Positions 2,483 through 48,665 of a stretch of DNA of 64,000 nt are shown piece by piece. The first letter of the stretch is position 1; every line of letters begins with the position of its first letter. Where the stretch lies: the NCBI GenBank assembly GCA_028622995.1, contig JAJQJQ010000009.1, positions 3,286,001 through 3,350,000 of the forward strand. Direction: 5' to 3'. The translations under genes were made by a program, and so were the position numbers. The notes beneath the pieces were generated by a model. The model was not told where the DNA came from. It worked only from the letters and a program-made list of their open reading frames with translations, and did no database searches. This DNA comes from Panagrolaimus kolymaensis. Its lineage: Eukaryota; Nematoda; Chromadorea; Rhabditida; Panagrolaimidae.

Positions 2483-3770
2483 TAAACGGTATCAAAATTG
2501 GCTTTTTTTCCATTTGTATTCCATGGACTTAAAGAATTGACGCTTAGATCATCATTATTTATTATGAGTTGTCGATCAATAATACATTGATAAATTCCCT
2601 TTTTTTTATTTTGAGGATTTAAAGGAGCTAGTATCAAAGATAAAAAAAAATGCACATCCTATTTTTTTGTTAACTTTAATTTCAAGATTTTATCAAAATT
2701 TTCTTTTTTAAAAACAAAGGTGAAAATTTTTTGTTTTATTTATTGGTTTGAATACTTGAATACAAGAAAAATTTAACAATAAACTCCAGCAAATAAAACT
2801 TGGTTAGGAATATTTTCAGGTCTGGCAATATCGTCACTGTTTTCGCCAGTTTTTTCAATTTGTTCCATTGAAACTATGAAATAAAGGAAAGGATGATTGG
2901 CGATAAATTTTTTAGGAGGTAATGCACTTCTTGGTACTGCACCAAATCCTGTTGCAGCACTAGCTTCAGTTCCATATTCATCAACCTGAAAAAATAAAAC
3001 TTTATAATTGGTTGTTTAAAAATAATTATTAATACTTACGCTTATTGTGGCACTGTGAATAGCTTGATCGATGGCATGCCCTTCATCAAACATCTTTGTT
3101 AAATCAGCCCAATCTTGAAACATTTCGCTGATTCCAATATTTTTTAAAGTATCTTCTAAATCATATTTTGCAGAAATTTTAAATGCTGGAATTGTGACAT
3201 CAATTTTATCACAAATTATTGGACTGAATAAAAAAAAACTTTATTTCTGACCAAAAAATACACAATTAAAATTACCCTTTGGCACATTTCATAAACATCG
3301 AATAATCAAAGGATTGAATTAAAGCTTCCAACCCATCTTTTTTCTTTGGCAAAACTACAAACATGAAAACCCTTTCGCCTTTATATGGAAGTTGAACAGC
3401 TTTCCAATTTTTATCTTCAGCATATTTGATCGTAAAGAAATTTCCAGTCATCATATTCATTTTCCGAGGTGGATTTGAGTGAAAAATGTCTTCTTGCCTT
3501 GGATTAAAACGCTTTTTCCAATTTGCGATAAAATGAATAACGTTTACAAGCATTATGGATGGCGCCGGTGTTAAAGTATCACTGTCAACAAAAGTTTCTA
3601 TTTTTCCTTTTGTTGCATCTTTAACAAAATTGTTGATATCCTGAATTTTTTTTATTAGTTATTGGTAGATATTTGCTTAGGGAAAAACATTGAATTGCGA
3701 TTTTTATGGAAGATTACACCATTATATTCGTAAAAATTCTGACCGAATAAAATTTAATATTTTTTTACTC

Positions 3771-6984: not shown

Positions 6985-9900
6985 ATGTCTTGGGCTGAAA
7001 TTCAAAAGCTTGCAGCTGATTTACAGCGAATTCAATCCACTGAAGCTGCGGAAAAGTTAGTTTCAATTCAAAAACATAAATCAAAACTACAAAAATTGTT
7101 TTTTTGTTTTTTAGACTTTCGGATTCAAATTGCGTTGAAATTATTTCTCGTTTAATTACAACTAAACTCATCGATGTTGTATTTACTTGCGATGGAAAAG
7201 AATATATTACTCGCAAGCATTTGGTTACTGAAATCAAGCATCAATGCGCTGGAGCTGATGGACGAATTGCAATTACAACTCTTGCAGCAAAGTTAAACGT
7301 GGATTTGAAAAATGCTGAGCAGGGAGTGAATGCCTTGGTCAAAAGTTTGCCTAGCACTTATTTGATTTCTGCTGGAGAATTAATTACAGCGTAAGATTTA
7401 AAAAAAATATAAAAGGTTTTTATCTAAAAAAACTTTTTTCCTTTAGTGAATTCATCGATCAACTTTGTACCAAACTCAATAAACTTTTGGATGATGTTGG
7501 CCAACTTTCAATTCTTCATTTAACTAATTTCTGGAACATTCCCATCGAATTTCTTAATCAACATGTGATTTCTGAAGTCGGAAACAAAGTCCATGCTGTA
7601 AAAGACGGGGATCAACTTTACACAAAAAAATTCATTGAGATCCAAAAGGATCGACTCCTTAGTGCCACTCGAGCCACAACTTATTCCACATCTTTAAGTT
7701 CTTATTTTGAAGCGTTAAATATTCCTGAAACACTTTTCTTCAAAATTCTGAATGAACTTTTGGCGAATAAATTATTGAATGGCGAAATTATTGGTTCAAA
7801 AAATTCATTGAAATCCGTTTATGTTCCTGAAGTTCAAAGTGCTTTAGTCAAGCGATATGTTCGAGACACTCTTCTCAGCCAAAGGCATATTTCCAATGAT
7901 AATTTGCGAAAAATGAATGTTCAAACTAATAATGCATTTTTCTCAAAAGTTTTGAGCCCAAATGAATGCTCTCAGTTAATGTATTTGCCGAATATGGTGC
8001 TTCTCAAAGATTTATATATGCAAATTTTCGATAATGTTCAAGGTTTTGTTATTTTTTTCTTTTACTCCTATATTTAATAAACATGAAAATAATTTTAGAA
8101 ATCATGCGTGAGAAAAATTATTGCAACGTCGAGGATGTCATTAACAACATTGCTGAGGGCTTCGAGGAAGAAGATATAAATTCCATAATTGAAATGATGA
8201 TCGCTGAAAATAAAGATTCCAAATGGTATTATCCAGAAAATTCAAACAACAACTTTGTGTTTAATGAAATTATGCTGGAAAAAGCAAAAGGAGTTTTGGA
8301 AAGTTATATTTCTGAAGAAGCAACTCGAATTTTGCCTGAAATGAGAGACGCTTTAAAAGATCAAAAAATCAACAAAGGTGGACATGGCGGTGGTGGAGGT
8401 GGAAAAAATAAAGATGAAGATGTAAGTTTCTAAATAAATTTTTGGCAAAAATGAATAATAATTAGTTTTATTTTAGGATGATTGGGGAAGTGGCGGAGGT
8501 GCAGGAAAAAATAAGAAAAAAGGTGGTGGCGGCGGTAAGAAACCAGCCGCCAGCAAAAAAGCAACCCAAACCAGCGATGGCGATATTTTGAGAAATATTA
8601 TTTCTGGATATTCCTTGGATGAAAATGAAATAATCAGCAAACTTGAAAATTCACCCATTATTCCAACCGAATTAATTCCTGACATTTCTGAAATTCTCTT
8701 GACTCAATGTAACGAAGCTTTTCGAAAACAATTGGAAGCTCAATATTCTGCTGGAGGCGCTGGAATTAAAGAATCTAAAAATGCAATTGAAGGATGCCAA
8801 AAAAAGGTCACTGAATTATATAATAATTTTTGCATATTCGATCAAGGCACCTCAATTTTTGTCGATGAAATTCTTGCTGCTGATTTGCAACAATATTTAC
8901 TTAAAAGTTTTGGAAATGATATTGCTGCTACAGTTTTGAGAAGCTACAGTGACGTTGCTGAAGGGGTAACGTTAACACCAAAAGTTAGTGGAACTTCTTC
9001 AGTTTCTCCACCCTACTTTTTCACTTTTTTTCATTTTTCCCTTATTTTACAGGGGGGACCAAGGGAATTTCCTACTTTAACAGGGGAGACCAAAGGAATT
9101 TTTTTTCTTCAAGAGGGAGTCGAACTTTCGACTTTCTCACAGTCAATGGTACTAACCACTCGACTATAGAAGCTTCAAAGACCTTTGTTTCAAACTTGAA
9201 TATATTGAAATCCAAAAAAAATATAATAACTAATTATTTATTCACAAAAAAGAATAGATTTATTCATGAGTACTGTTGGATAACCTGTTGCCAAAAATGA
9301 AAAAAACCTAAATTATTAATTGCAAATTCTTTTCTCCAACAATGTTCAACGATGTAATCTGCCAATGAAGATCTATGGGTTCCATATCGGGTTTTGTGAG
9401 CAGCTTTAAACTTTTGTCAGCTGCTTTCTATTCCTTGGGTGTAAGCACCATTTTCGGGATTAATAAAATTTTCTGAGTGGTTAACGGTTAAATGAGTATA
9501 GCCTTGTGGAAGTTGATCAATGCGAAAGTATGCACGCCACAAATCACTGATTATTATGGACCCTGGAGCAATTCGAGATTGAATGATAGGAAGAAGGGTA
9601 TCAGCGTTTCGAAGAGGAACAATTTCCATAAAGCAATTAGAAGGATTTTCACGTTCAATACCTCCAAAAATCCATACTTGTTCAGTAATGATTCGTCCTG
9701 AAAAACATAAACCTAATAAACGCTTTGATGGATACAACTAACCTTTATTATATTTCCGTTTAGAAATGACGGTTTCGTCAATTTCAACTACCACTCCGGG
9801 TCCACCAATAACTTTAGGATGGGCAACATAATGATCAACACAAACATCGCGACAGAATTGAAGCCAATCACAAATTGTAGCATCACCAAGATTACTTTCA

Positions 9901-33438: not shown

Positions 33439-34942
33439 TTAAGCCCAGAAAAGACTTTCTTCAATTGTAGCTTTGAAAACGCCATTGAGATTAGCAAAAC
33501 GAGATTTTTCTTGATCCTCTTCTGCATGATGAATTTGTCGATCATGACCATAGCCAACACGTTGGATGTCATCACCACTATAAAAATAAAACAACATTGT
33601 TAATAAGCACAAAAAAATATGAAAATTTTACCTTCTATTTTTGTTTTGATTAAAATTATTTCGAGCACGTTTGGAAAGATCTGCAGCACTTACAAGTGGC
33701 GATGGTAAAGCAGTTGGTGAAGTAACAATACCATGAGTATAACAAAGGCAATAAGTCAACCATCGGATATGTTCCAATGGGATTACATCTTCTCCTTCCA
33801 AAATATAATAAACCGTGGGATGTGCGGTTCCGATCAATGCTCTTTGAGACACTAGAATGAAGGAATTTGACGGGTAACAATTTTTTCTGAAACACATGTT
33901 CCAGATGGAACATTTTGTTTTGGTGCATTATCGCGGCTATCAATATCTTCTTTGAACAACCGATAAGCAGTAGCTCGATTGGCCATGATAACAGTGAATT
34001 TTACATTTACTTTGTCAAATTCTGGATGTTGTCGCTTCAAATTTTCAATAACGAATTTTAAAATGGACACTTCGTAGATTTTAACCTAAAAATTTAACAA
34101 TAAATTCTACATTAAATAAATTTAAAAAATTAACATACTTTTAGAATTTCACCTTCGGATAAACCGGAACGATAAACAACAATCCATTTAGGATATTTTC
34201 CGCTATTACGATAATAAGCCATAATGGCATTAGTAAATTTTTCAGTTATCAATGTTTCATCAATAATGGTATTTCGAGCTGGAATATATCCAAAGTCGCC
34301 TTTATCCATATTGGCTTTTCCAGCAAAAATATTTGAAGCGAAACCAACTGTAGTTGGATCCAATGTTTCATTATCCGCATTGTTAGTAGTTGAATTACCA
34401 CCAGCTGGATGAGATATATCAATACCAAAAAAGAGAGTGTCCCGCATCATTGATTTTCTAAAATTTAACAATTAAGGTAAGAAACTTTTTTTTCACAATT
34501 TTTAACTTACAAAAAGTCACGATCACCATGTTCTTTAATAAGAGAAGGGTCACTGCTAATATTCCAATTTAGACCTCCAGCTTTTAGATTGAATTTGAAA
34601 ACCAAATTATCGAATAAAGAATGATTAGCTTTTTTAATAGTTTTTGGGCAAATATTTTGGGTTACTAAGCGACTTGATAATTCTTGGTATTTCATGCCAT
34701 GATGAAGATCATCATTATCGCCAATAATTAAAGCGAAATCAAACCCGCGAATTGCTAATTCATTCAATTTTTCAACATCATTACCTTGATGATGCCATTC
34801 AAAGAATTCTAAACTTTTAATACGGACTCCATAAAGTTCAAGGCGGCGTTTAAATTCATCAAAAAAGCGCCTAAACAAACAAAAAAAAATAAAAAGGATT
34901 AAATCTAATTCCAAAAAAAGATTACTTAATTGAATTTATATC

Positions 34943-35047
34943 TGTTGTGCCCACATATTTGGATGTGTCTGGCTCCTGTTACGAAAGTATGTGAAAGTCA
35001 GTGACGCACTCATACTCTCTCGCTTTTGTCTCTCTGTTGTATTTTTG
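34943..35047 (+). repeat. 5' LTR, first part
   Basis: Identical by eye to 44358-44462. The LTR is cut here by the 7.07-kb Mutator-like element; it continues at 42125. The last nine bases, GTATTTTTG, are that element's target duplication. Confidence 0.9.
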
Positions 35048-35325
35048 GGGAGAGAACACTTGCCCGACGGTGTGAAAAAAGTGTGAAAAGTTGCCCGACC
35101 TGGCAAAAAGTAATGAATGACAAGTGTGAAAAAATGAAAAGAGCGTCGGGCAAAAAAAGAAGCTCTTTAAAAGTTTCAAATTTGTGAAATTTTTTATTGA
35201 TTTGTTTCAAAAATATATGCATAAATTTATTTACATTTTAAAACTATTATCGCTCGAATTTAATTACCTTGTTAACCAATTTTATTTTTTAAAAATGTTG
35301 CAATTATTTTTACATTAAAAAAAAG

Positions 35326-38300
35326 CTAAAAAGACACAATTGGCTCAAAATGGTTCCCATTAACATAATCGACAAAAAGAGAAGGAACATTATTTACTGC
35401 TTTAACAACTTTATCTTCCGTCATTGTTAAATGGGGCGCAAAAATAAAGCCGTTGTTACTTGGGTATCTAAACCAAATATTTAGACCAATTAAATCAGAT
35501 AAGCCATGGGCATCGTCGTTTCCGGCCCAAAGCTCCAGTGGTACACCTTCATTTTTGTAAAGCACTTTTAAAATTTCATCACGTTTTCGTTCAAATTCTT
35601 TCACGATTTTTGCGGAACCAATACTATGAATTGTTAATCCATGTTTGATGATATGGTCATAAGTTCTTAATCTTATTTGCCAGTGGTGTCGTTGATTTCC
35701 AGTTAACAATACTGAAGCTGAACGAAAGAAGCAATGTCCATCACCCCTTGCTTTACCTTTTCGAAAAGTCAACGGATTGTACACATTATTCGAAGCGGTT
35801 AATAAAGGAGATTCTTCAACAAGGCTTGGATCTAATCCCAACCGCTTTAAAGATTCTATGATTTGATCTTTTGAAGGAGAATTAAAATAAACGTTAACAT
35901 CATCATTTGGTATTATTCCACCTGGACGAAGTTTTTGATTTTCCTTTTTTTGAGAATTTAACATATTCTTGCTTGCCATAACTCGAAGATTATTTATACC
36001 ATCGACTTTATCCATATCTTGCTGAATTTTTGGTTGAAGTTTAACTTCATCTTCAACCACTTCCACGCTTTCATTTGCCTGAACAGAATTTAAAAGACGT
36101 TTGTTGAAGTTTGATGTTTCTGATTTAATTTTATTTTGAATTTCTGGGGCTTTAAAATTCAAAAAATCTTCTCTTCTTTGTTCACCAGTAAGCTCATCAA
36201 TTAAGGCATTAGCTTCGGTAATAGCTGACCAATCAAAGGGAATGGTTTCATTTAAACTTTCGGACAAAAGTTTTTGAACTCCATTATTTTCTTCATCACC
36301 GACAATATCTGCTTCATAAGTTCTTGATGCTTGTTCATCGAAAGTTTCATTCATCTCCAATTCGACCATTTTTTCGGCATTTTCAATAATTTTGTGTAAA
36401 TCTTTTGATTTTTTAAAATCATAATCTTCATAATCCTCAAATAAATCTTCAGCATTATCAGCTTGCTGTTGAGTAGCAGTTGCTTTTGCGGATTTCATAG
36501 TCATCAAACTTTTGTTACGAACTTCATGTAATAAATAGGAAATACGGGAGCAATGCCTTGCTTGAATTTCCAATAGTTCTTCATCGCTTGCATTCTATAA
36601 AAAGTAACAAATTTTTAAATGTATTTCTCTTTTTTATTGCTTTAACTTACTCTTTCTGAAGCTTCTTCCATAGCTTCAGAATAATGATCTTCATATGAAC
36701 TAATTCTAACTTGAAGTTCCGCATATTTTTTATTTTTGGGCTTTGGTTTGATTTTTCCATCCAAAAATTTCAAAATCCTCGATTCAGTTTTAGAAAACAT
36801 TGTTTGTTGAATTTGTAAAAATACTTTATATTTGGGATTTTTTGGAATAACCATTGGAAGAAAGCTGTGATATCCCTCGCATACATTGGTGTTTCTTTTA
36901 TTGAGATTGAAAAAAGAGAAAGTATTTCCAGCCTTTAATCTTGGAATCCAAGTACGGTTCATATAAGCCACTATTTGCTTCAATTCTTTTGTGGGCCAAT
37001 GTTGAGGATCAACATTTACAGGAACTGGTGGAACTTTACTCAAAACATGTTCCCAAAAAAAAATAGCATCATTTGCAGGAAGCATTGGTAAAGCTAATTG
37101 AAGACGGAACCATCTCCTGATAGAATCGAATTCAGGCTTTCCTTTTTTTCCAGCCATATAATGATCGTAAAGCCCTTTGCTTTTGATTTATCTTAAGAAA
37201 GCCTGGTCGAAATGGAAGAGGCAGCCATATACTTTATCAGCCCCATTGAGTTTTTGAAGGGCATTTAAGAGCCCATTCTCATAATCGCAATGTACACGAT
37301 CAAATTCTGGTTGGATACCATATTCTGCCCATTTTTGTTTTATTACATTTATGATGGTTTCATAAGTTGCTTGATCTTTATTAACCATTGGCGCCATTAA
37401 AAGTACATTCCATTCTTCACCAAATTCTGTTTTAACAAGGCCATGAATATAAAAAGTTTGTGAGAACCCATATGGGGCTGTACTAAATGTAGCGTCACAT
37501 GCTAATGTTTTTGAAGAAGCCATTATCCTAAGTGCTTGTTCAGATGCAAAAACAGCAGTGCCATTATCTTCATATTGCAACCAATCTAATCCTTGCAAAA
37601 GTTTTGAATGCTCTTGTGCAATAGTTCCTGGTATACTTGAAGGTAATAATTTACCATGTAATCTTTGCAATACCTTTTTTACATCAATATATTCTTCAAA
37701 TTCATCTTGAATTTTTTCCATCACAGCTTGTTTGAAGGCCATATTATGGGCATCGATCGGTTTAACATTCCTTAATACATCCTTGCGCATTTGTGTTTTG
37801 ATCTTCCTTAATTTTTGTTCATTTTGTGGAATTGGGCCTTTGCAATTGATTGAATGATTAAGTTCAACATAAAAAATTTGGTTTATCATGTGAGCTTTTG
37901 ATGCATCTTTTGCTTTTCGAGGACAACGATTACAGTGATAATGTACTTTTTTTCCACGACTTTTACTTACTGTATAAGTGAAGAATTCACCTTTAACTTC
38001 TGCAAGCACAGTGGAGTTTTTGAGTCTGATATTTTCAATAATTTGATATGAAACTTTGATACGGCCATCTTTATCTTTTTCGTCTGAATTGCCGATTGCG
38101 CCATTGGTGTTTTGAACATAAACATTATCATTATTTAAATCAATATCATTATCGTCATGATATTCTGCAGCTGGAAGCTTAGGATCAATATTTTCTTTGA
38201 TGGATGGTAAAAAATTTCTAATATTATTCAATAAATCTGGAAATAATTCTTTATTTCCTTCAAGCTCATTTAACAAGCTTCCGGCCATTTTTGCTGTTTC

Positions 38301-40116
38301 AATACATGAATTTTGGAATTTTATGAGTTTTTGTGCAAAAGCTTGGGCTTCTTTATTTTTGATAGCATCCGATGCCGTCGTTTTTAAAGAATTAAAAAGG
38401 CTTGGATTTTGAAATGACAGTTTTTCAGGGACTGTGGAAGAAACAGCACTTTTATCTTCATAGCTTGTATTAGTTAAAAAACTTTCATTTAAACCTTGAT
38501 CCATTTCCATTGATTCTTTTTTTAAAGTTGGAAATAGTAATTTATGAGTTTCTGAAGGTTCGGGAACTGCTGAAGAATCACTAATTTGAGGAGCATTTTG
38601 GGATTCGAAGTCCATTTGAAATTCATCAACAAATTCTAATTTCTTTTGCTTCATTTTATTTTGTTTAGCTGATAAATACTTCTGCAATACGCCACGAACA
38701 GAGCCTTTTGTTACACCATATTTATTGTTTGTAATTTCGTTAATTTCAGTAGCGCATTTTTCATAACGTTTTGATTGATTCGTTCCTTGAAACTTTGAAT
38801 ATTTTTCAAGAACTGGTTCCAGTAAAGGGTCTTCATGAACAGGTAATTTATTGTAAGCTAAAGGTCTCATCCTAATAAACTCTTTTGGTGGAGCATTGAT
38901 TTTTTTAGCAATATAATTAATAGGTTTTTTTTCTTTCATTTTTTGATTATTGGGCTTTTTTATAGAAGATAATTTGCTTGCTTTGTTGTCTGCACCACCA
39001 TAACACTTATATACGAATTCACTATCGTTTTTATCTAAACAATTCTACTATTAATGAAACATTCAAATATTTTTTCTTACCATTATCATTTTTAGAAATT
39101 AATGAATCAAATTTTATTTCAGGTAATTTTGCTTGACCTTTTTGCTCTAAACATGGGGAAATTAAAATAGTCTAAAAACTAAAACATACTAGGTGTAAAT
39201 TCCGGAGTTTGATATGTTTTTTTTATTTTGTCCAATTCATTTAAATCACTTGATTCCTTGGATGAGATTATGGGAGTTTCAGAGGTTTTCTCTTGCTTTT
39301 TTTCAATAAATGGCATTTCAGATTTATTTTTGTGGTCAATGCTATCATTCTAAAAAAAATATATTCACTAACAATTAAAAAGCTTTAATTAAAAAATCTC
39401 ACCATTATTTCATTTTTGTTTTTGATTTTGGTTATTTTTCCAGCAATGATGTTGGGTACTTGCTAAAAATTAACACGATTTTGATAAAACTTAAAAATCA
39501 AAAATCAAAAAAAGCTAAATTTAAGGTTAAACCAAATAGACACATTATGTATTATTTAAATTCTCACCTTTACTTTACTCATAAATGAATCAAATAGTGA
39601 ATGGGATGGTGCCGATCGAGTTCGCTGTTGAACACATTTTCGAATTCTTGACATTCTTCGTTCTTTGACATCCTCTGAATCCTCCTCTTCATTTTCAAGA
39701 ATGAAGGGTTCTTTTGGTTCTTTATGATGGGTTAGCTGGATATCTTTTAAAATTTTGATGCAATTTGGTTTCTGGATTAATGGTTGATTTGTTTGAGCGA
39801 TATCATTTCCACCACTATTTCCTGTTGCATTTCTTACTTGTGCTGCATTTTGTAATAAATTTTGAGCAGCTTCCATTGGATCAATCTTTATACCCTCTTT
39901 GGTTGCTGGTGGTTGTTGAATTAAATGGGAAGAAGATTGAACACATGTATTTCGGGATGAACTTGAAGAGGAAGAAATACGAGAATTTTGAGCAGTTTGA
40001 ATAGGAGGATTATTCATTTCCTTTTTTAAATTCTTAAGGCTTTCCATCATTTGGGTTGGAACTTGAGGATCCAAACCCTTTGAAGATCCATCTTTCGATT
40101 TGCCATAATTAAACAT
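35326..40116 (-). CDS. MULE transposase fused to an OTU protease, 1495 codons with one stop
   Basis: Exons 40116-39568, 39462-39403, 39349-39190, 39146-39081, 39034-36651 and 36594-35326 join to exactly 1496 codons with the final TAG. Residues 1-300 are Ser/Gln-rich and disordered. A Cys/His-rich region around residue 640 (His-Cys-Asn-Arg-Cys..) looks like a FLYWCH-type DNA-binding finger. The MULE core follows: Asp in Cys-Asp-Ala-Thr-Phe (about 792), Asp in His-Cys-Asp-Tyr-Glu-Asn (862), the CxxH motif Cys-Leu-Phe-His (883-886) and Glu in Val-Cys-Glu-Gly-Tyr-His (998). Past an intron in phase 0, the same frame enters an OTU cysteine protease with Gly-Asp-Gly-His-Cys-Phe-Phe (Cys about 1361) and a closing Gly-Asn-His-Phe-Glu-Pro. 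An in-frame TAA (37188-37190, codon 894) breaks it between Asp 2 and the Glu; otherwise the frame is intact. OTU enzymes cut ubiquitin; here it might stabilise the transposase or process the polyprotein (inference). Confidence 0.85.
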
Positions 40117-40436
40117 GGCTAAAAAATATTTAAGCCTTTAAAAAAAAGCAAATCAAAACAAATATACACGATATTTATTTTTATATTGTACTTAAAAATT
40201 TTCTAAATAAATTATTTTTCTTCAAAGAAAAACACTAATGTACAATTTTTTGGTGTGCTTTGCGCAATGCTTTTTTTAAATGTCAAGAAACAAACAATTT
40301 GCCGTCTTTTTTGATCTTTTTATTCGGCTGTCTACTTTGATGAGAATAAAAAAAAACAGTCATTTGCTGAAAAAATTTCCATTTTATTTTTGCTTAAATT
40401 TCTTGGAAATAAAATCGATAATTTGACTGTTTTAAA

Positions 40437-41746
40437 ATGCTCGAATGGATATTGAGGCCAACTACTGGAATTGGTTATGTTGATAGACTTCTTACTCAAT
40501 TCTTAGCATTTTCTTTTATAATCTGTGGCACGTTTATGGGTTATAAAACCTATGGAAAAGGCGGTATTAACTGCTTATCTAAAGCAGATTGGGTTGATTC
40601 ATGGATCGGCTATGCCCTTGATATATGCCTCGTCGAAGGTTCATATGTTGTTTCTCAAAACCATCCACTTCCACCAACATATTCAGAACTTTTGGCGTCC
40701 AAAAAGATAAAATATTATCAAGCAAGTTTAAACTTTTATTTTAATTGTTTCCAAGTTGATTCTTTTAGTGGCATCCTATTCTTCTTATCATTTATGGCGG
40801 GTTTTTGCATCTACCTTTAATCTTTTGGGCATTTGTAAACACTTTTGGCTGTAAGCGTAATAAGTTTTTTTGATGAAATGTATTTAATGATTTTATAGAT
40901 TTTAATTGTGAAGCTTTTTGCAAAGCTACAAAGCAAGTTTTAAAAGGCCCTCACAAGGCTATTCTTTTTCAACGAAATGTAAATTCATTTGGACATAGTT
41001 TATTCGCTCCAGTGCCTGAAAGAAAAAAAAGAAATTGTTGTGTAACTATTTTCATGTAAGTTTAGATAATTATTTTCTAGTAAAAGCTTGAATTTTAGTT
41101 ACCTCTTTAATTTATTGGAAAATAGTTATTTACCCGCCCTTTATTTATTTTTTAAAATTTGGAATCTTTTTAATATTGTTATTGTTGTAAGCTTTTCTTC
41201 ATATAATTCAATGGACTTAAGTGATTTTAAATTTACTTTTAGTTTTTTGCCATTAATATTTTTTTTACTGAAGATGATGAAGATATATTTGGAGTATATA
41301 CAATGGTTGGATTATATTCAAATAAATCAACTGCTTTCCCATCTGTTACAACATGCTCCTTTCTTGTTCGCGAAATTGGCAACTCAGATCTTACAAGTAT
41401 GAGTAAAAAATCCATCGATTGCTCATTGATTTTAAATTATTTATATAAGAAAGTTTACATTTCTTTATGGTTTATTCTCCCAGCATTATTCATAGTAAAC
41501 ACGTGGCAAATTTTAACGTCACATGCAAAGTTGTTTACCAATAAAAGAAGCTATTTAACACGGCTTTTAATATCGGGAGATGTTGTTATTAATGAAAGTA
41601 ATGTAGCAGCTGTGGATGATTTCGTTAAAAGTTTCAACTTGAATTGCCTTTTTGGTATCAAAATGTTGGAACGTACGATGGGTTATTCTTTTGCTGCAAA
41701 AACTGTTGTGCAACTTTTTAATGATTTAAATAAAGCTTGCTATTAA
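40437..41746 (+). CDS. Innexin (gap-junction channel protein) inside the MULE, 371 aa
   Basis: Exons 40437-40721, 40769-40850, 40899-41055, 41099-41186 and 41243-41746 join to 372 codons with TAA and no damage. The first intron has a GC donor (GCAAGT); using it restores the invariant innexin motif Tyr-Tyr-Gln-Trp (93-96). Four membrane helices can be placed. The first extracellular lo­op has two Cys (46 and 64) and the second has two (Thr-Thr-Cys-Ser-Phe and Ser-Ile-Asp-Cys-Ser), as innexins need. Phe-Pro-Ser-Val-Thr-Thr-Cys and Ser-Leu-Trp-Phe also match. It lies between the terminal repeats of the Mutator-like element, opposite to the transposase. Innexins form intercellular channels in invertebrates. 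Intron retention suggests capture as genomic DNA, not from mRNA. Whether it is expressed cannot be told. Confidence 0.88.
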
Positions 41747-42124
41747 TTTTTTTATTTCGCTTTTTCTTCTCTCTTAAATGATCCTTAAAATAAATATTAA
41801 AAACTTTATTATAATTCAACAGCAAAAAAATACACTATCAACAAGCAAAAAATTCCAAACAAGGTATTGGTAAATATTATTAAGAAAAAACAAAAATATT
41901 TTTGACATAATTAGGTAAAACATTAGTCAAAAAACATCGACTAAATCAAAATGTCTAAACCATTTTATTGCTGGAAAATATGGCGAAGTTGCTTTTGGAA
42001 AGAGAAAAGAGAAAATTGCTTTTCAAACTTTCCGCCATTGGCGTTGATGCGCCTTTAGCCAGGTCGGGCAACTTTTCACACTTTTTTCACAGCGTCGGGC
42101 AAGTGAGGGCTCACCGTATTTTTG

Positions 42125-42234
42125 TCTTTCATTCGTCTCATTTCTTGTATTGTAAGCATTGCTGTCTGTGCTGTAATATTGTGTGCAATAAAGCTTTTCT
42201 ATTATTGTTGTGTCTCCTGAACCCGTGCACAACA
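42125..42234 (+). repeat. 5' LTR, second part
   Basis: Identical by eye to 46591-46700; contains GTGCAATAAAGC, a plausible polyadenylation signal for the element. Confidence 0.9.
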
Positions 42235-42255
42235 AATTGGTGGAGATAAAAGAAT
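42235..42255 (+). promoter_or_regulatory. Putative primer-binding site
   Basis: AATTGGTGGAGATAAAAG lies directly after the 5' LTR; the TGG matches the CCA end of a tRNA primer. I cannot name the tRNA. Confidence 0.5.
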
Positions 42256-42479
42256 TGTCCTCGTCCTCAAAGCCTCACTCTGCTTCTGCTACTGCTTCTT
42301 GCTGCTGCTGTGGATCAACCGTCGCTGCTTGTTCTGTTCGTGCAAATCTCAATCGTCTTCAACGTGCTGCTTATTGGTTTGTTCTTCAACTTCTTGATCA
42401 ACTGCTATAACAACCGACGATTTCGCTTCCAACAATTCCGCCGTTCAAGCTTGATATTGCTCGTCCTAACTCTGCTGCT

Positions 42480-44108
42480 ATGTGGATTGAAAGAATCAAC
42501 TACATTTTTGATCTTCATTCGACGCTCACTCAAAAGCAAAAGATTAGTTTAATCATGACTCCTTTGGATGACTCATGCTATGAGAAGGTATCTGCTGCTT
42601 TGCTTCTTACACCAGCCGTCAAAACTGAAAACGATGCAACAACGTACGATGTCAAAGTCCTTCAGAATGTGATGATTCAACTCTTCGACCGTTCTGAATC
42701 GTTGTTTGCTAAACGCTTTGCTGCTCTTCAGATCACGTGGGCTGATCCTGATGATGAACCAATTGCTGTCTTTGGTGCAAGAATCAAACAAGCGACACTT
42801 AATTTCAAAGTTGATGCCTTCGAAGAAAACGAACTTCAAACCTTGCTCCTTATGCTCTCTATGAAGTCAAGAGATCTCGAACCGCTGCGTTATCGAATAC
42901 TCGACAAGCTTGCTGCTAATCCAAAAACGCTATTTGCTGATTGTCTTCAAATTATTGAATCTGCAATTCAAACCAAACGTGAACAAAAGCTGCCTGAAAT
43001 GCAAACAATCAACAATGTCAATCGCCGCCTTCCACGTCCTGGTAAGCATTCGTCAAAGAAAGAAGATAGCAATTCCTCTAGTGATGAATCGTCAAGTGGT
43101 AATTCAACTTCGTCAAGACATACTGGTTATGGTCGATGTTCGGAATGTGGAAAACGCAAATCCAAACGTCATCATAAGCTTTGTGATCGATGTTTCCGCG
43201 CTACCACGAAATGCAACAACTGTCAAAAAGAAGGTCACTTTGCTGTGGAATGCAAAGTCAACGCAAAAACATCAAGCAAAATCTCTGGTAAACATATTAA
43301 CGCTTATCATATCATGTCTGTAATTCGTCCTGCTGGTGATGCTGCCGCTACTGATGTAACTCCTGTTTATGATCGTGCTGTTGCATTAGAGAAAGAAAAT
43401 TATATTGAAATGCTGATGGATACCTCATTCGTCTCTCGAGCAAAAGCTGTTAGTGCTCTCAAAGCTGCTGATTGTGATTATTGTCAAGCATATACTGCTC
43501 TCCGTAGCAATCGTCAAAATAATGCTCTTGGTCCAGATGTTTTCAATGTCTCTGCTCAATCGCCGCCTGCTGCTAGTGCTACTCGTACTCCTCTTGATGC
43601 TCAAGCCATAAGAAAAGAAAGGGGAAAGGGAAGGAAAGTTGCTGCTTTTTCCATTCAAATGTCTGCTGCTGATAAAAAGAAAGCTGATGCTGATGCTATC
43701 ATTGCTGCTTCACCCGACAAATATACACCCGACAAGGATGGATTCTCTGATCTGCTTCGTGGTACTGATCGTGGTCATGCTGTAAACGTTGATACTGGTG
43801 ATTTCGTTGAATTCTGTAAAATAAATGGTGGTAGCAAAACTATTGGAAGAATTGAAGGTCTTAACGAATATGGTAAGTACCAGCTCCTTGATCTCAATCA
43901 ACGTCATCGCTCTGTTGAACCTCATCAAGTGCTTCGCAAATGGACACCGCATGCTGAATACTATTGTCAACCAAATGCTCATGTCAATGTCTTTAGCTGC
44001 TTAAAGAAAAACAATGCTCGCGCTCAACCGTCGAAAAATGCTAAGAAGAAAGTCAAATGGTCAAACGTCGTACATGCAAATGATATCAATGAAGGCAACC
44101 GCCATTGA
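42480..44108 (+). CDS. Gag-like protein of the LTR element, 542 aa
   Basis: One open frame with an N-terminal capsid-like helical region (about 1-180), a Ser-rich linker, and a zinc knuckle Cys-x2-Cys-x4-His-x4-Cys (Cys-Asn-Asn-Cys-Gln-Lys-Glu-Gly-His). A UBA-like segment at about 300-340 follows. An SH3-like stretch near residues 455-505 (Gly-Asp-Phe-Val-Glu-Phe..Gly-Arg-Ile-Glu-Gly) resembles the C-terminal domain of LTR integrases. No protease, reverse transcriptase or integrase core is present. Gag would coat element RNA. The frame is open upstream to about 42408 without an ATG, in text that reads like a normal Gag start, so translation may begin earlier through splicing or a non-AUG codon. 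An overlapping frame at 44014-44346 also looks coding-like (acidic, Met-rich) and could be the remains of Pol. Confidence 0.8.
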   Translation: MWIERINYIFDLHSTLTQKQKISLIMTPLDDSCYEKVSAALLLTPAVKTENDATTYDVKVLQNVMIQLFDRSESLFAKRFAALQITWADPDDEPIAVFGARIKQATLNFKVDAFEENELQTLLLMLSMKSRDLEPLRYRILDKLAANPKTLFADCLQIIESAIQTKREQKLPEMQTINNVNRRLPRPGKHSSKKEDSNSSSDESSSGNSTSSRHTGYGRCSECGKRKSKRHHKLCDRCFRATTKCNNCQKEGHFAVECKVNAKTSSKISGKHINAYHIMSVIRPAGDAAATDVTPVYDRAVALEKENYIEMLMDTSFVSRAKAVSALKAADCDYCQAYTALRSNRQNNALGPDVFNVSAQSPPAASATRTPLDAQAIRKERGKGRKVAAFSIQMSAADKKKADADAIIAASPDKYTPDKDGFSDLLRGTDRGHAVNVDTGDFVEFCKINGGSKTIGRIEGLNEYGKYQLLDLNQRHRSVEPHQVLRKWTPHAEYYCQPNAHVNVFSCLKKNNARAQPSKNAKKKVKWSNVVHANDINEGNRH

Positions 44109-44345
44109 TATCTCGTCAACAAGCCAAGCTGTGTGTACCATGCCCGAAGACGTGTCAATCGATGATTACAAAACGACGACAACTGAAGCTATGGAAATCT
44201 TCGAAGATGCTGTAGAATGGATGGATCCAATGATCATGGAACTCTCTGCTGTTGAACAAGGAAAACTATTCGAACTGGTCCAGAAGGTATGGGTCAAAGT
44301 CAACCGCCGTCAAAGCCAACTTGTTAAGCCTGGAAGTCTCATATA

Positions 44346-44357
44346 AGTGGGAAGGGA
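44346..44357 (+). promoter_or_regulatory. Polypurine tract
   Basis: AGTGGGAAGGGA lies immediately before the 3' LTR, the expected place for plus-strand priming. Confidence 0.7.
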
Positions 44358-44462
44358 TGTTGTGCCCACATATTTGGATGTGTCTGGCTCCTGTTACGAA
44401 AGTATGTGAAAGTCAGTGACGCACTCATACTCTCTCGCTTTTGTCTCTCTGTTGTATTTTTG
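44358..44462 (+). repeat. 3' LTR, first part
   Basis: Copy of 34943-35047; cut by the 2.1-kb OTU element at the same nine bases, GTATTTTTG. Confidence 0.9.
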
Positions 44463-44475
44463 GCAAAGTCCCAAT

Positions 44476-44538
44476 TTTCGGAAAGTGAGAACCGAACGTT
44501 CGGTTTCTAACCGAACGTTCGGTTCTCACTTTCCGAAA
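44476..44538. repeat. Perfect 63-base palindrome near the left end of the OTU element
   Basis: TTTCGGAAAGTGAGAACCG... is followed by its exact reverse complement ending ...CACTTTCCGAAA, with a loop of about four bases. Inside it, the 12-base palindrome CCGAACGTTCGG appears twice. A matching smaller palindrome lies at the right end (about 46535-46566). Confidence 0.9.
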
Positions 44539-45422
44539 GCTTTGACACTTTCGTTGGCAAAACGTTATTTTGTGTATCGTTCGGTTTGATGCTAACGAAC
44601 GAATGTGTTCGGGTTCGATAACCTTATCCATAATTTTTTTTATCAATTTTTTTTGAAATAAATATTTTTAAATTGCTCTTTGAAGATAAAATAAATTGGA
44701 ATAACAATAATATGTACTATTTAAAAAAGGCAGAGGAATAACCAAAGCTGTTGCTAAAGTTTTTTTAAATCACAAAAATATCCCTATCACTATCTTTTCA
44801 TTGAAACAAGTAATTATTTTTTTAAAATCTAGTCGTTTTTATGTTATCACAGATATTAATGAAACAATTTAAAAACTCAATCTGCAGCTTTGATGAAAAA
44901 ACTAATCGATCAAACAAAACCAATTTGTCATAGCTGCATGGTCATTGCTTTAAAGTTTAAACATACAAATGAAACCTTCGATATTTATTACCAAAAATAC
45001 CTATATACGCTTAGTTATATTTTTCTTGTGCATATGTTATTAAATTATAATAAGTGAATTCAATGCAAAACAGTTAAAAAAAGCTCGTTTCCATTAATTT
45101 TTGAGATGCCTTCACTTTTATTTTTTGTTTTTTTTCTCTCTCGCAGTATTTAGAATTGAAAATGGTCTTCTTTTTTCTCTGCTACATCTCAATTGCAAAT
45201 CAAGCGGCATCTTCATTTGTAAGTAAGAATCACATTCGGAAACTAACTTTCAATGGAAGCCCAAAGTTTAAAACAACAGTTTTTTTCTTTCCAAAGATTT
45301 TTTTTATCGAATAAAAAATTTCGGCAAAAAAAATAAAAAAAGAAAGATGTAAACATTTTTATCGAAGCAATGGATAACATTTACCAAAAAAAGATCCGTT
45401 CTTTTTTATTTGATTTGAAAGT

Positions 45423-46259
45423 ATGGAAGAGCAGAATGAAAAAGGAGAAGAGCCGATTTCATCTGAAGATGGTGAGAATCCAATTAAAGTGGCACAAAAA
45501 AGAGATGAACCTTATTTTGGAACAAAACCATCAGATATTGCAGATGAAGATTTTATACCAGTTGAACCAGGGGTAATATTTATTATATCATCTTAAGTTA
45601 GCAATCATTTTTTTTATAGTTTTTTGGCGGCCCCGTAACTCGTCGTTCTTGCTTTTATTATTTGAATCCACCATCAGAAAAATGGTGCAGAAACGTGTGC
45701 ATAAAGTTGGGGTTATCCTTCAAACAATTTCTTCACCCTTCCTTGAATGGAAGAAAACAACCAATTATTATTGAACACTGTAAAATTATTGATTTCTTGC
45801 AAGTTCGTGGCGATGGAAATTGTGGCTATAGAGCGTTAGTGATGTTATTAACTGGATGTGACGATCAACATCCTCTTATGCGACATATTCTTTGTAAATA
45901 TATCCTCGAAGATAGAATCAACTCTAACAGTAAGCTAAAACATTATTTTACAGTTTTTTAAATAATTTTTTTAAGGATTGGAAGGCGTTTATCCAAATAT
46001 GATTGAGGAAGTAACCGCAAAAATTCGTGTTGCACCCAGCGCTGCATTTCCTGAACTTTGGTTAGGCGAAGGTGATCTAGCATTCTTCAGTCGTTTGGTT
46101 GAATGCAATATTATTGTATATTCATCTGAAAATGGAAAATGCATATTACATAATCATTATCAATTTGGTGGACCTTTCGGAACCCAAAATCCTAATCTCC
46201 CCACCTTGTTACTTAGATATTCACCAAGCCATTATTGTCCTCTTTTTGATGTAAAATAA
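45423..46259 (+). CDS. OTU-domain cysteine protease, 247 aa
   Basis: Exons 45423-45572, 45620-45929 and 45976-46259 join to 248 codons. The N-terminus is acidic (MEEQNEKGEEPISSEDGE). The OTU core has Arg-Gly-Asp-Gly-Asn-Cys-Gly-Tyr-Arg-Ala with the catalytic Cys near residue 110 and Pro-Ser-His-Tyr-Cys-Pro-Leu close to the C-terminus with the catalytic His. OTU enzymes remove ubiquitin or related modifiers. It is the only gene in the 2.1-kb element and is related to, but not a deletion copy of, the OTU part of the larger element in the other LTR. The reading frame is undamaged. Confidence 0.85.
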
Positions 46260-46590
46260 ATTAGTAAATTTAAAGTACAAATGTTAAAATTAAGCTTTGT
46301 TTGTATATATGTATTTGTGATCATACTTTGTTTGTATATATTTGTTGAGTTAGTTTATGCATGTAAAATGATAATTTTTAATAAAAATAAATTAATGAAT
46401 CAATAAATAATATTCTGATGGACAAAACAGTTGGAAAACTATAAAAATCAAAAATTTGAAGCAAGCTTTCTGACTGTAAGTTGTTGGAACAAAATGCCAC
46501 TAAATTTGAATCTCCCGCCAAAAAAGAGCTCAACTCTCGGAAAGTGAAAATTTTTTACTTTCCGAAAGATGTAGACCCACCGTATTTTTG

Positions 46591-46700
46591 TCTTTCATTC
46601 GTCTCATTTCTTGTATTGTAAGCATTGCTGTCTGTGCTGTAATATTGTGTGCAATAAAGCTTTTCTATTATTGTTGTGTCTCCTGAACCCGTGCACAACA
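46591..46700 (+). repeat. 3' LTR, second part
   Basis: Copy of 42125-42234; ends in CACAACA and is followed by the target duplication ATATC. Confidence 0.9.
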
Positions 46701-48665
46701 ATATCGATTTCTTCAATAGATGCAGCATGAATGATCGCTAATTTTTTCACAATTGCTGGATAAACAAATTTGTCGATTGTTGTCATTCCAAAAAGGCCGC
46801 TCTTCAAAGTTTTTTGAGAATCTTTAAAAACAATACTTGGTGGAGTTAATAATTTTGCTGGGGCTTTAATCATTCGTCGAGCATCAACACGAACACCAGT
46901 TTCATGAATAAAATCATTGCTATTGACAATTTCAGCTTGATCACGATACTTTTCAATCTTTTCAACATTTGTAAAAGGAAGAATTTGGGATTTTTTGATA
47001 ATCTTTGAGTTCTAAAATAATTCAATGAAAAATTTGTAAAAAAAGTTCAACAAAAAATCTTACTAATTCGTTGCTTTGTTTTGACTTTGGAACTCGTTGA
47101 TTTTCTGGAATTTGAAGTACTTCAAGTGGATAATAATTATCTCCATTCTTGGTTACTTCAATGGCACATGGATTTTTGGGAAATCGAAGTTTGATATTGT
47201 ATCGTTTAAAAAAATATTTTGAAATAGTTACACATTTACCATCAACTGCGAAATTGATGCTGAACAAAAATCTTCTACATACAAAAATAATTAACTGGTT
47301 ATTCTACCTTTCAGCTGAATCAGTTGATAACCGAGCAAAAATAAACATTTTATTATTCTCCAAATGAATGGTTTCCACGCAAAGGCCTAGAAATATAAAA
47401 TAGAAAATATTAAAGAATAAGATAATTGAGAAAAATACCTTTAACAGCATCATTAGCTTTTTTTAAATTCAATCCATTGAAAATATAAGCAATATCACTT
47501 CCAATACTATATTCAATTAATTCTGAGATTGTTCGATGGGCGTAAAATAATTTTTTAGTTGGTAGCAGCTGAACCATCATTTTTTTATCTGCTTCAATAC
47601 ATCTAATTGATCGTGATACACCTTCTTTCAAAAGAAAAGGGGAATGTTCAATTGGCTCGCAACCATTCTTTTCAAAGAATGTGTTTGCGAATGAAAGAAA
47701 ATTATTACTATAAATAAGGGTGAAGTTGGTAAAAGATTGTAAAAGATTAAAATAAAACAAACCTATTCCGTTGCTCCTGATTGAAAACAATTTCCAAGTA
47801 TTGGATAACTGGTTTATCATTTTTTTTCGTCAGTGATATTCAAATTTTCAAAATTTATTTCTCGGGAAAATTTAATGATCGCTGAAGCTTTAGAAATTGC
47901 TCTAAAGTAATCTTTAGCAGCTTTGTCAAAGCTTTCCTGCAAGTTTTTTTTTTGGAGATCTTAAAAAAAAGAAAAGAGATAAAACTTACAACATTAATGA
48001 TTAGTTCTTTTGTTTCACCTTCATTCAAAATTTTGTTTTGAGAAAAAAACATTCTTCCAGAATCATATGCATATTTTGAATCACCTTCATGAATTTTGAA
48101 AAATATGGGATCAGAATAAAGAAGTTTAAAAAATACCGATCAGAGGGCTATTTGCTTTCTTTGAAATTTGACACTGAAACCGATTTTCTTTCTTCATGGT
48201 TTGTAAAAAATTCTTAACTCACTCATTTTTAGTTTGCTTATTTAAATCCACATATGTTCCATTCTTGGTCCAGCCTTTCCATTCAATATCATATTGAAAG
48301 CCTTGCTTTGCTTTGGAAATATCAATTTCGTATCCATTTGTAATAATTTGCATATCTTTTTTTGAGCACTAAACGTTGGCATTAGATAATTCATTAAAGG
48401 CAAATAAATTTGGTTCATGTGTAGGGAGATTGGATGTTGATGAGTCATCACCAGGCGCTTTTCTGCAACCCTAAAAATTTTGTATTATAATTTATCGATT
48501 TATTTTATATATGCAAATGTGAAGTTAACTTACTGGACCAGCGCCTCTTCCACTACTGCCACTTGGTCCTCGACGATAATCACTACCACCACGATAGACA
48601 ATGCCACCACTGCTTCGATAATTTTCATTTAATGGATAATCACGATTATGAAATCGATCAGACAT

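Follow-up and report, generated by a model that had tools for sequence, protein, structure and literature searches.

Two different MULE-like transposons interrupt the same base in the two LTRs of one retrotransposon of the nematode Panagrolaimus kolymaensis

Introduction

Among the described systems closest to the case reported here, the maize Mu/MuDR elements show a weak symmetric target consensus around a 9-bp duplication and favour the 5′ ends of genes as well as open chromatin, their hotspot genes being more highly expressed (PMC2774946). The MULEs of animals include Tm1 of root-knot nematodes, which has duplications of 8–10 bp and internally repetitive inverted repeats (PMC3169594), and Muta1 of Aedes aegypti, which has duplications of 8 or 9 bp (PMC5225508). 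In the excerpts of these two papers considered here, no target consensus is reported for Tm1, and little or no sequence preference for Muta1. A specific repeated target, TA microsatellites, is used by the MuTAnT family of Medicago (PMC4486113). Coding MULEs lie inside other elements in only 7% of cases in rice and 9% in maize (PMC3903597). As for accessory proteases, the available part of the report on Ginger1, a group of animal DNA transposons with a transposase of the Gypsy-integrase type, associates Ulp1 with Mutator elements and OTU with Helitrons, and describes an OTU protease part in several Ginger1 elements (PMC2836005). All statements on published systems in this paper refer to such excerpts of the sources cited.

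Here we describe a locus in P. kolymaensis in which two DNA elements, termed E1 (7.07 kb) and E2 (2.12 kb), interrupt the 5′ LTR and the 3′ LTR, respectively, of a single retrotransposon at the same nucleotide. The stretch of DNA analysed, hereafter the window, is 64,000 nucleotides long (C8:3286001–3350000). E1 and E2 resemble Mu/MuDR in belonging to the MULE superfamily and in having a symmetric target consensus; they differ from it in the consensus itself, in the length of the duplication, and in having hit both LTRs of one retrotransposon rather than genes (PMC2774946). Like Tm1 and Muta1 they are animal MULEs, but they have a clear target preference, whereas these are reported without one; moreover, the words OTU and innexin do not occur in the text of the Tm1 report considered here (PMC3169594, PMC5225508). 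The inverted repeats of Tm1, compared by description, are rather like those of E3, a third element discussed below (PMC3169594). With MuTAnT, E1 and E2 share a specific repeated target, although not the same one (PMC4486113); Ginger1 elements, several of which have an OTU protease part, are likewise animal DNA transposons, but with another type of transposase (PMC2836005). The position of E1 and E2 within LTRs runs against the general habit of MULEs, given the 7% and 9% cited above for rice and maize (PMC3903597). None of the titles and abstract openings covered by our literature search described a pair of DNA elements occupying one base in both LTRs of a single element.

Results

The retrotransposon spans positions 34943–46700 of the window and is bounded at both outer ends by its own 5-bp target duplication, ATATC (34938–34942 and 46701–46705). 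Its 215-bp LTRs start with TGTTGTG and end with CACAACA. The left part of the 5′ LTR (34943–35046, plus strand), which ends with the 8-bp site GTATTTTT, is identical to the left part of the 3′ LTR (44358–44461, plus strand), and the right part (42124–42234, plus strand) is identical to its counterpart at 46590–46700 (plus strand); the LTRs, which the earlier note described as looking otherwise identical, thus agree at 215 of 215 bases. The interior (42235–44357, plus strand, 2123 bp) contains a single gag-like ORF (42411–44108) with a CCHC zinc knuckle that scores barely above the cut-off (21.5 vs 20.8), and no pol ORF was seen in it. With its TG...CA LTRs, short target duplication and gag, and without pol, the element is a non-autonomous retrotransposon of the LTR type. 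Its interior is 99.4% and 99.1% identical to those of the copies on contigs C13 and C74, respectively. On contig C2 the homologous locus is empty; it aligns with the two flanks, once joined, at 563 of 600 bases and has a single ATATC. Rfam gave no match within 34000–47500 of the window.

The genome searched for further copies comprised 265,843,910 bases in 807 contigs. It should be noted that one small contig, C205, duplicates part of C8, including an E1 insertion (loci L021 and L032); some contigs are therefore alternative versions of a single location.

Comparison of copies delimits the target duplications in the window: GTATTTTT lies at 35039–35046 and 42116–42123, to the left and right of E1, and at 44454–44461 and 46582–46589, to the left and right of E2. 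The earlier note had different DNA elements sitting at the same 9-bp site of both LTRs; the shared base is confirmed, whereas the duplication is 8 bp long. Of the 16 E1 copies, two of which represent one location because of a doubled contig, 14 are flanked by an exact 8-bp duplication, as are all 21 E2 copies examined, while a ninth base matches in only 4/16 and 5/21, respectively. The 9-bp duplication GTATTTTTG was rejected; it is GTATTTTT plus a G. The ninth base is apparent because both elements begin with G, as do all 37 copies examined, and the LTR continues with G. Nor is the 9-mer GTATTTTTG rare, as it occurs six times in the window against 2.74 expected, a number reached by 7 of 100 shuffles. 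The 18-mer CTCTCTGTTGTATTTTTG has six mismatch-free occurrences in the genome, which are the six LTRs of the three young copies of the retrotransposon on C8, C13 and C74. Two of these six exact-site LTRs, both in the window, are occupied at the site; E1 and E2 are absent from it in both LTRs of the C13 copy and both of the C74 copy. Under uniform insertion, the 37 E1 and E2 insertions (E1 at 15 different locations, plus the 22 E2 copies that have both ends) would place 0.00018 insertions in the six exact-site LTRs, which were chosen post hoc, compared with the two seen.

E1 (35047–42115, minus strand) is a MULE-like DNA transposon with inverted repeats near its ends (52 nt, 96%) and 16 genome copies with both ends, counting twice the place on the doubled contig. 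Thirteen of the 15 other copies fetched are full length, with 9–11 differences to the window copy over 7,068–7,078 aligned columns and one further gap in eight of them; the remaining two comprise one copy with a large internal deletion and one with 36 gaps. The ORF pieces for transposase, OTU and innexin are open in all 13 full-length copies, and those for innexin in all 15. The deletion copy (L034) has no transposase pieces and keeps the innexin pieces open.

The transposase region of E1 (36642–39044, minus strand) consists of two ORFs, 37188–39044 (618 aa) and 36642–37187 (181 aa). The former scores 14.9 bits against the Pfam MULE profile, below the cut-off of 27.6, and the latter has no Pfam match; as the query of a protein search, the larger ORF matched none of 7641 candidates at E ≤ 0.001. 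An ORF at 35326–36594 (minus strand) includes a putative OTU-like cysteine protease part. Its matches are weak: Pfam PF02338 is sub-threshold for both E1 and E2 in the window (E = 0.063 and 0.081), the OTUD3 match of the E1 part has E = 0.0095, and its predicted structure is of low confidence (pLDDT 47.5). The innexin gene pieces at 40422–40817 and 41243–41746 (plus strand) match PF00876 separately, with 28.2 bits (E = 1.4e-6) and 52 bits (E = 7.8e-14) against a cut-off of 25, while the middle of the family profile has no match. This gene (40422–41746) apparently contains introns.

E2 (44462–46581, plus strand) is, by comparison of copies, a deletion derivative of a longer MULE, represented by an 8.1-kb copy on contig C25 (L080), from which it has kept the OTU part and lost the transposase. 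The OTU-like gene remnant lies at 45424–46256 (plus strand), its extent and putative introns being a reading; the weak Pfam match given above belongs to the piece at 45978–46256. Right ends of E2 number 23 in the genome, and so do its full left ends; 22 of them are paired. The inverted repeats of E2 are short, imperfect and found only near the ends, and are weak as terminal inverted repeats. The contents reported in the earlier note, transposase, OTU and innexin in E1 against OTU only in E2, hold for the innexin of E1 and for the missing transposase of E2; the E1 transposase is split into two ORFs and recognizable as a relative of the E2 one rather than by Pfam, and OTU is weak in both elements.

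In contrast to the E1 transposase, that of the long E2 copy passes the Pfam MULE profile (PF10551) with 33.2 bits against the cut-off of 27.6. The two transposases align in three segments, with 46% identity over 83 residues, 39% over 172 and 30% over 197, and both transposase ORFs of E1 are clearly related to the protein of the long E2 copy; the ends of the elements are different except for GG...CC. E1 and E2 thus represent separate families whose MULE transposases are related. The long E2 copy is assigned to the MULE superfamily by PF10551, and E1 by the alignment of its transposase to that of the long E2 copy; the 8-bp duplication, too, fits the length of about 8–11 bp expected of MULEs. The FLYWCH zinc finger, which precedes the MULE domain in Phantom elements (PMC3169594), had no match in the ORFs tested. 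This absence does not settle Phantom membership, because Phantom is elsewhere listed with none, FLYWCH or SWIM (PMC6446971, in the part considered here). A sub-threshold RYYR-CCHC match (E = 2.9e-4) was seen in the long E2 copy.

The long E2 copy also contains ORF pieces (L080:2103–2828 and 3037–3414, plus strand) that may be read as resembling an envelope-type glycoprotein: a basic stretch is followed by a hydrophobic segment and a coiled region, and a membrane segment lies at the C-terminus. This ORF had no Pfam match above cut-off and no match up to E = 1 in a sequence search of the PDB.

The target preference of E1 and E2 was modelled by symmetric base frequencies over the duplication and four bases on each side, using 12 E1 and 20 E2 insertions. 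These 32 of the 37 insertions exclude the two in the window, which served as the test case, two with imperfect duplications (L022 and L035), and L021, which is the same place as L032. Also unused were a distant, one-ended E1 relative (L036), the one-ended E2 matches L037, L038 and L039, and the second E2 copy on C94. In leave-one-out evaluation of the 32 sites, the true site is, at the median, among the top-scoring 3.1% of positions around it (z −7.95 vs uniform). The preferred target is a symmetric AT-rich 8-mer, approximately A/T, A, A/T, A/T, T, A/T between two outer positions open to any base, and it is frequently preceded by C or followed by G. With the families pooled, LTR position 97, where GTATTTTT lies, ranks first of 208 positions; this rank is kept when four repeat-sharing sites are left out, and also when the model is confined to the duplication or extended to ±12 bases. 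The site is within the top 0.33–0.65% of window positions outside elements. In models of each family separately (duplication only, ±4 and ±12), the site ranks 2, 1 and 10 for E1 and 1, 2 and 2 for E2 when symmetry is imposed, and 3, 1, 3 and 1, 4, 3, respectively, when it is not.

Thus, E1 and E2 are sequence-targeted, as their sites are predicted in held-out data. That their transposases share one target preference is plausible, since they are 30–46% identical in three segments. For two insertions in the LTR, however, sequence preference alone puts the chance of coinciding at only 3.8%, 5.0% or 0.56% (duplication only, ±4 and ±12, the ±12 model being noisier), the last value being near the 0.48% of uniform insertion. 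The earlier note named random insertion sites in other copies as evidence that would refute its observation; the E1 and E2 sites are indeed scattered over the genome, yet far from random in sequence.

A second repeat, a palindromic MITE family of 200 bp, has been hit repeatedly by E2. Its 40–45-bp tip received four of the 20 E2 insertions other than that in the window; one example of the MITE (L010:2098–2297) is 200 bp long, 94% self-complementary, and has TTAA at both tips. The E2 duplications in the tip form two pairs, shifted by 1 bp and 2 bp. We take the four insertions to be separate events, because their duplications are complete and their outer flanks differ, although two of these remain similar for some 70 bases. 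The copy number of the MITE is bounded from below only and is at least in the hundreds (300 candidates; 903 for one flank); for 300–10,000 copies, 0.0018–0.06 insertions in the tip would be expected, compared with the four seen. Without the four MITE sites, the leave-one-out median is 4.1% (z −7.16). The MITE tip serves as an independent replicate of the target preference of E2. The flanks of E1 had no match longer than 17 bases to the MITE. The strong target preference proposed in the earlier note is thus upheld, both by a site that scores highest in the LTR under a model trained without it and by the repeated hits of E2 at nearly identical positions of another repeat.

The retrotransposon family has at least 42 LTRs in the genome, a lower bound, as 40 of 51 candidates were scored in the LTR search. 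Thirty-eight are uninterrupted (34 and four more, one of which aligned only over positions 1–198), three are interrupted, and one, on C60, breaks off at position 63. All three interrupted LTRs are among the six youngest (P = 0.0017). E1 or E2 is found at the shared position in none of the 40 other LTRs of the census (39 readable there, one truncated), which speaks against the suggestion of the earlier note that the DNA elements ride on LTRs. Elsewhere in the family, an older copy has, 40 bp downstream of its 5′ LTR, an inserted element of about 6 kb (L008:711–6664) that is flanked on both sides by TGCTCA and contains a C2H2 finger as well as a Plavaka transposase match below threshold, and one copy has at its 5′ end two tandem LTRs at 7-bp spacing (L015:328–758).

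The third interrupted LTR, the 5′ LTR of the C74 copy, is one of the four other exact-site LTRs. It contains E3 (3345 bp), a multi-copy element, which has made a 9-bp duplication, CACTCATAC, at LTR positions 65–73, 32 bp from the E1/E2 site; the E3 site is not favoured by the E1/E2 target model. In a longer copy of E3, located on C68, the duplication is 8 bp. A transposase-like ORF of this copy is 35% identical to the E1 transposase over 31 residues (E = 3e-4) and has no Pfam match; owing to the shortness of the former match and the lack of the latter, E3 is only tentatively labelled MULE-like. The same copy encodes a retropepsin-type aspartic protease (L081:3066–3776, minus strand; PF13975, E = 2.2e-9; RVP, 3.3e-8), which comes after a hydrophobic, membrane-like segment.

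Discussion

The reading that we favour, with a probability of roughly 75%, is that the retrotransposon came first and that two targeted MULE insertions at one preferred 8-mer followed, the young LTRs probably being open promoters. The first step, insertion of a young LTR retrotransposon, is shown by the 5-bp duplication at its outer ends and by the empty site in the homologue. E1 and E2 then inserted separately at the same preferred 8-bp target, one per LTR, as their two complete duplications show. Their transposases favour a symmetric AT-rich 8-mer, and under a model trained on other insertions GTATTTTT is the best such site in the LTR. Sequence choice by related transposases accounts for the base that was hit; it does not account for one retrotransposon being hit twice. 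Regional attraction to these LTRs is likely, because only 0.00018 insertions are expected under uniform insertion and sequence choice explains only which base is used. An LTR is a promoter. Only the youngest LTRs are hit, and the attraction would probably stem from active promoters in open chromatin, by analogy with maize Mu.

The occupied LTRs might instead be two ordinary insertions that share a place without any regional attraction, found by scanning much sequence. The insertions number no more than two, a finding of this kind could have arisen in any of many repeat families, and the sequence preference itself raises the chance of a shared base. We nevertheless consider coincidence unlikely in view of the 0.00018 hits expected in the six LTRs, even though these were chosen post hoc, of a third element that also lies in one of the young LTRs, and of the replicate of E2 in the MITE tip. 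The assembly could also have stitched together E1 and E2 from different homologous copies of the locus, each insertion being real; a related copy exists on C2, and at least one contig, C205, is doubled with respect to C8. ATATC matches at both outer ends of the retrotransposon, however, 104 bp of LTR tie E1 to the left flank and 111 bp tie E2 to the right flank, and the closest homologue, C2, is empty, which together make stitching quite improbable. For the first and last of these reasons, the assembly chimera between loci considered in the earlier note is likewise unlikely.

That note had also offered gene conversion and a life cycle in which DNA elements ride on retrotransposon LTRs. Reverse transcription can, in principle, carry an insertion from one LTR into both, and riding of this kind, or the spread of one copy by reverse transcription or conversion, would bring elements into both LTRs. 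The same element would then be expected twice, whereas E1 and E2 differ in their ends and contents, so that conversion between LTRs could not have produced one from the other, and a separate duplication flanks each. Moreover, all further copies examined, 15 of E1 and 20 of E2, sit elsewhere, with duplications of their own (imperfect in two), and the four other exact-site LTRs have neither element at the site. Riding or copying is accordingly very improbable, and separate targeted insertion into an existing retrotransposon is the reading that we retain.

The find is unusual, yet it is an extension of known transposon targeting. A broader interpretation, possible but in our opinion doubtful, is that a lineage of animal MULEs, helped by open chromatin, picks fixed spots in mobile elements, such as the LTR promoter and MITE tips, with several families piling on the same base, and that some members or neighbours of this lineage carry host- or virus-type membrane genes, as the innexin of E1, the envelope-like ORF of the long E2 copy and the retropepsin of E3, placed after a membrane segment, may suggest.

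The animal MULEs Muta1 and Tm1 are presented without target preference in the portions of their reports considered here (PMC5225508, PMC3169594), whereas the preference of E1 and E2 predicts held-out sites and is strong enough for two families to have met at one base in sister LTRs. How MULE transposases choose their targets thereby becomes testable at the single-base level, and the case of E1 and E2 illustrates a way for mobile elements to interrupt one another.
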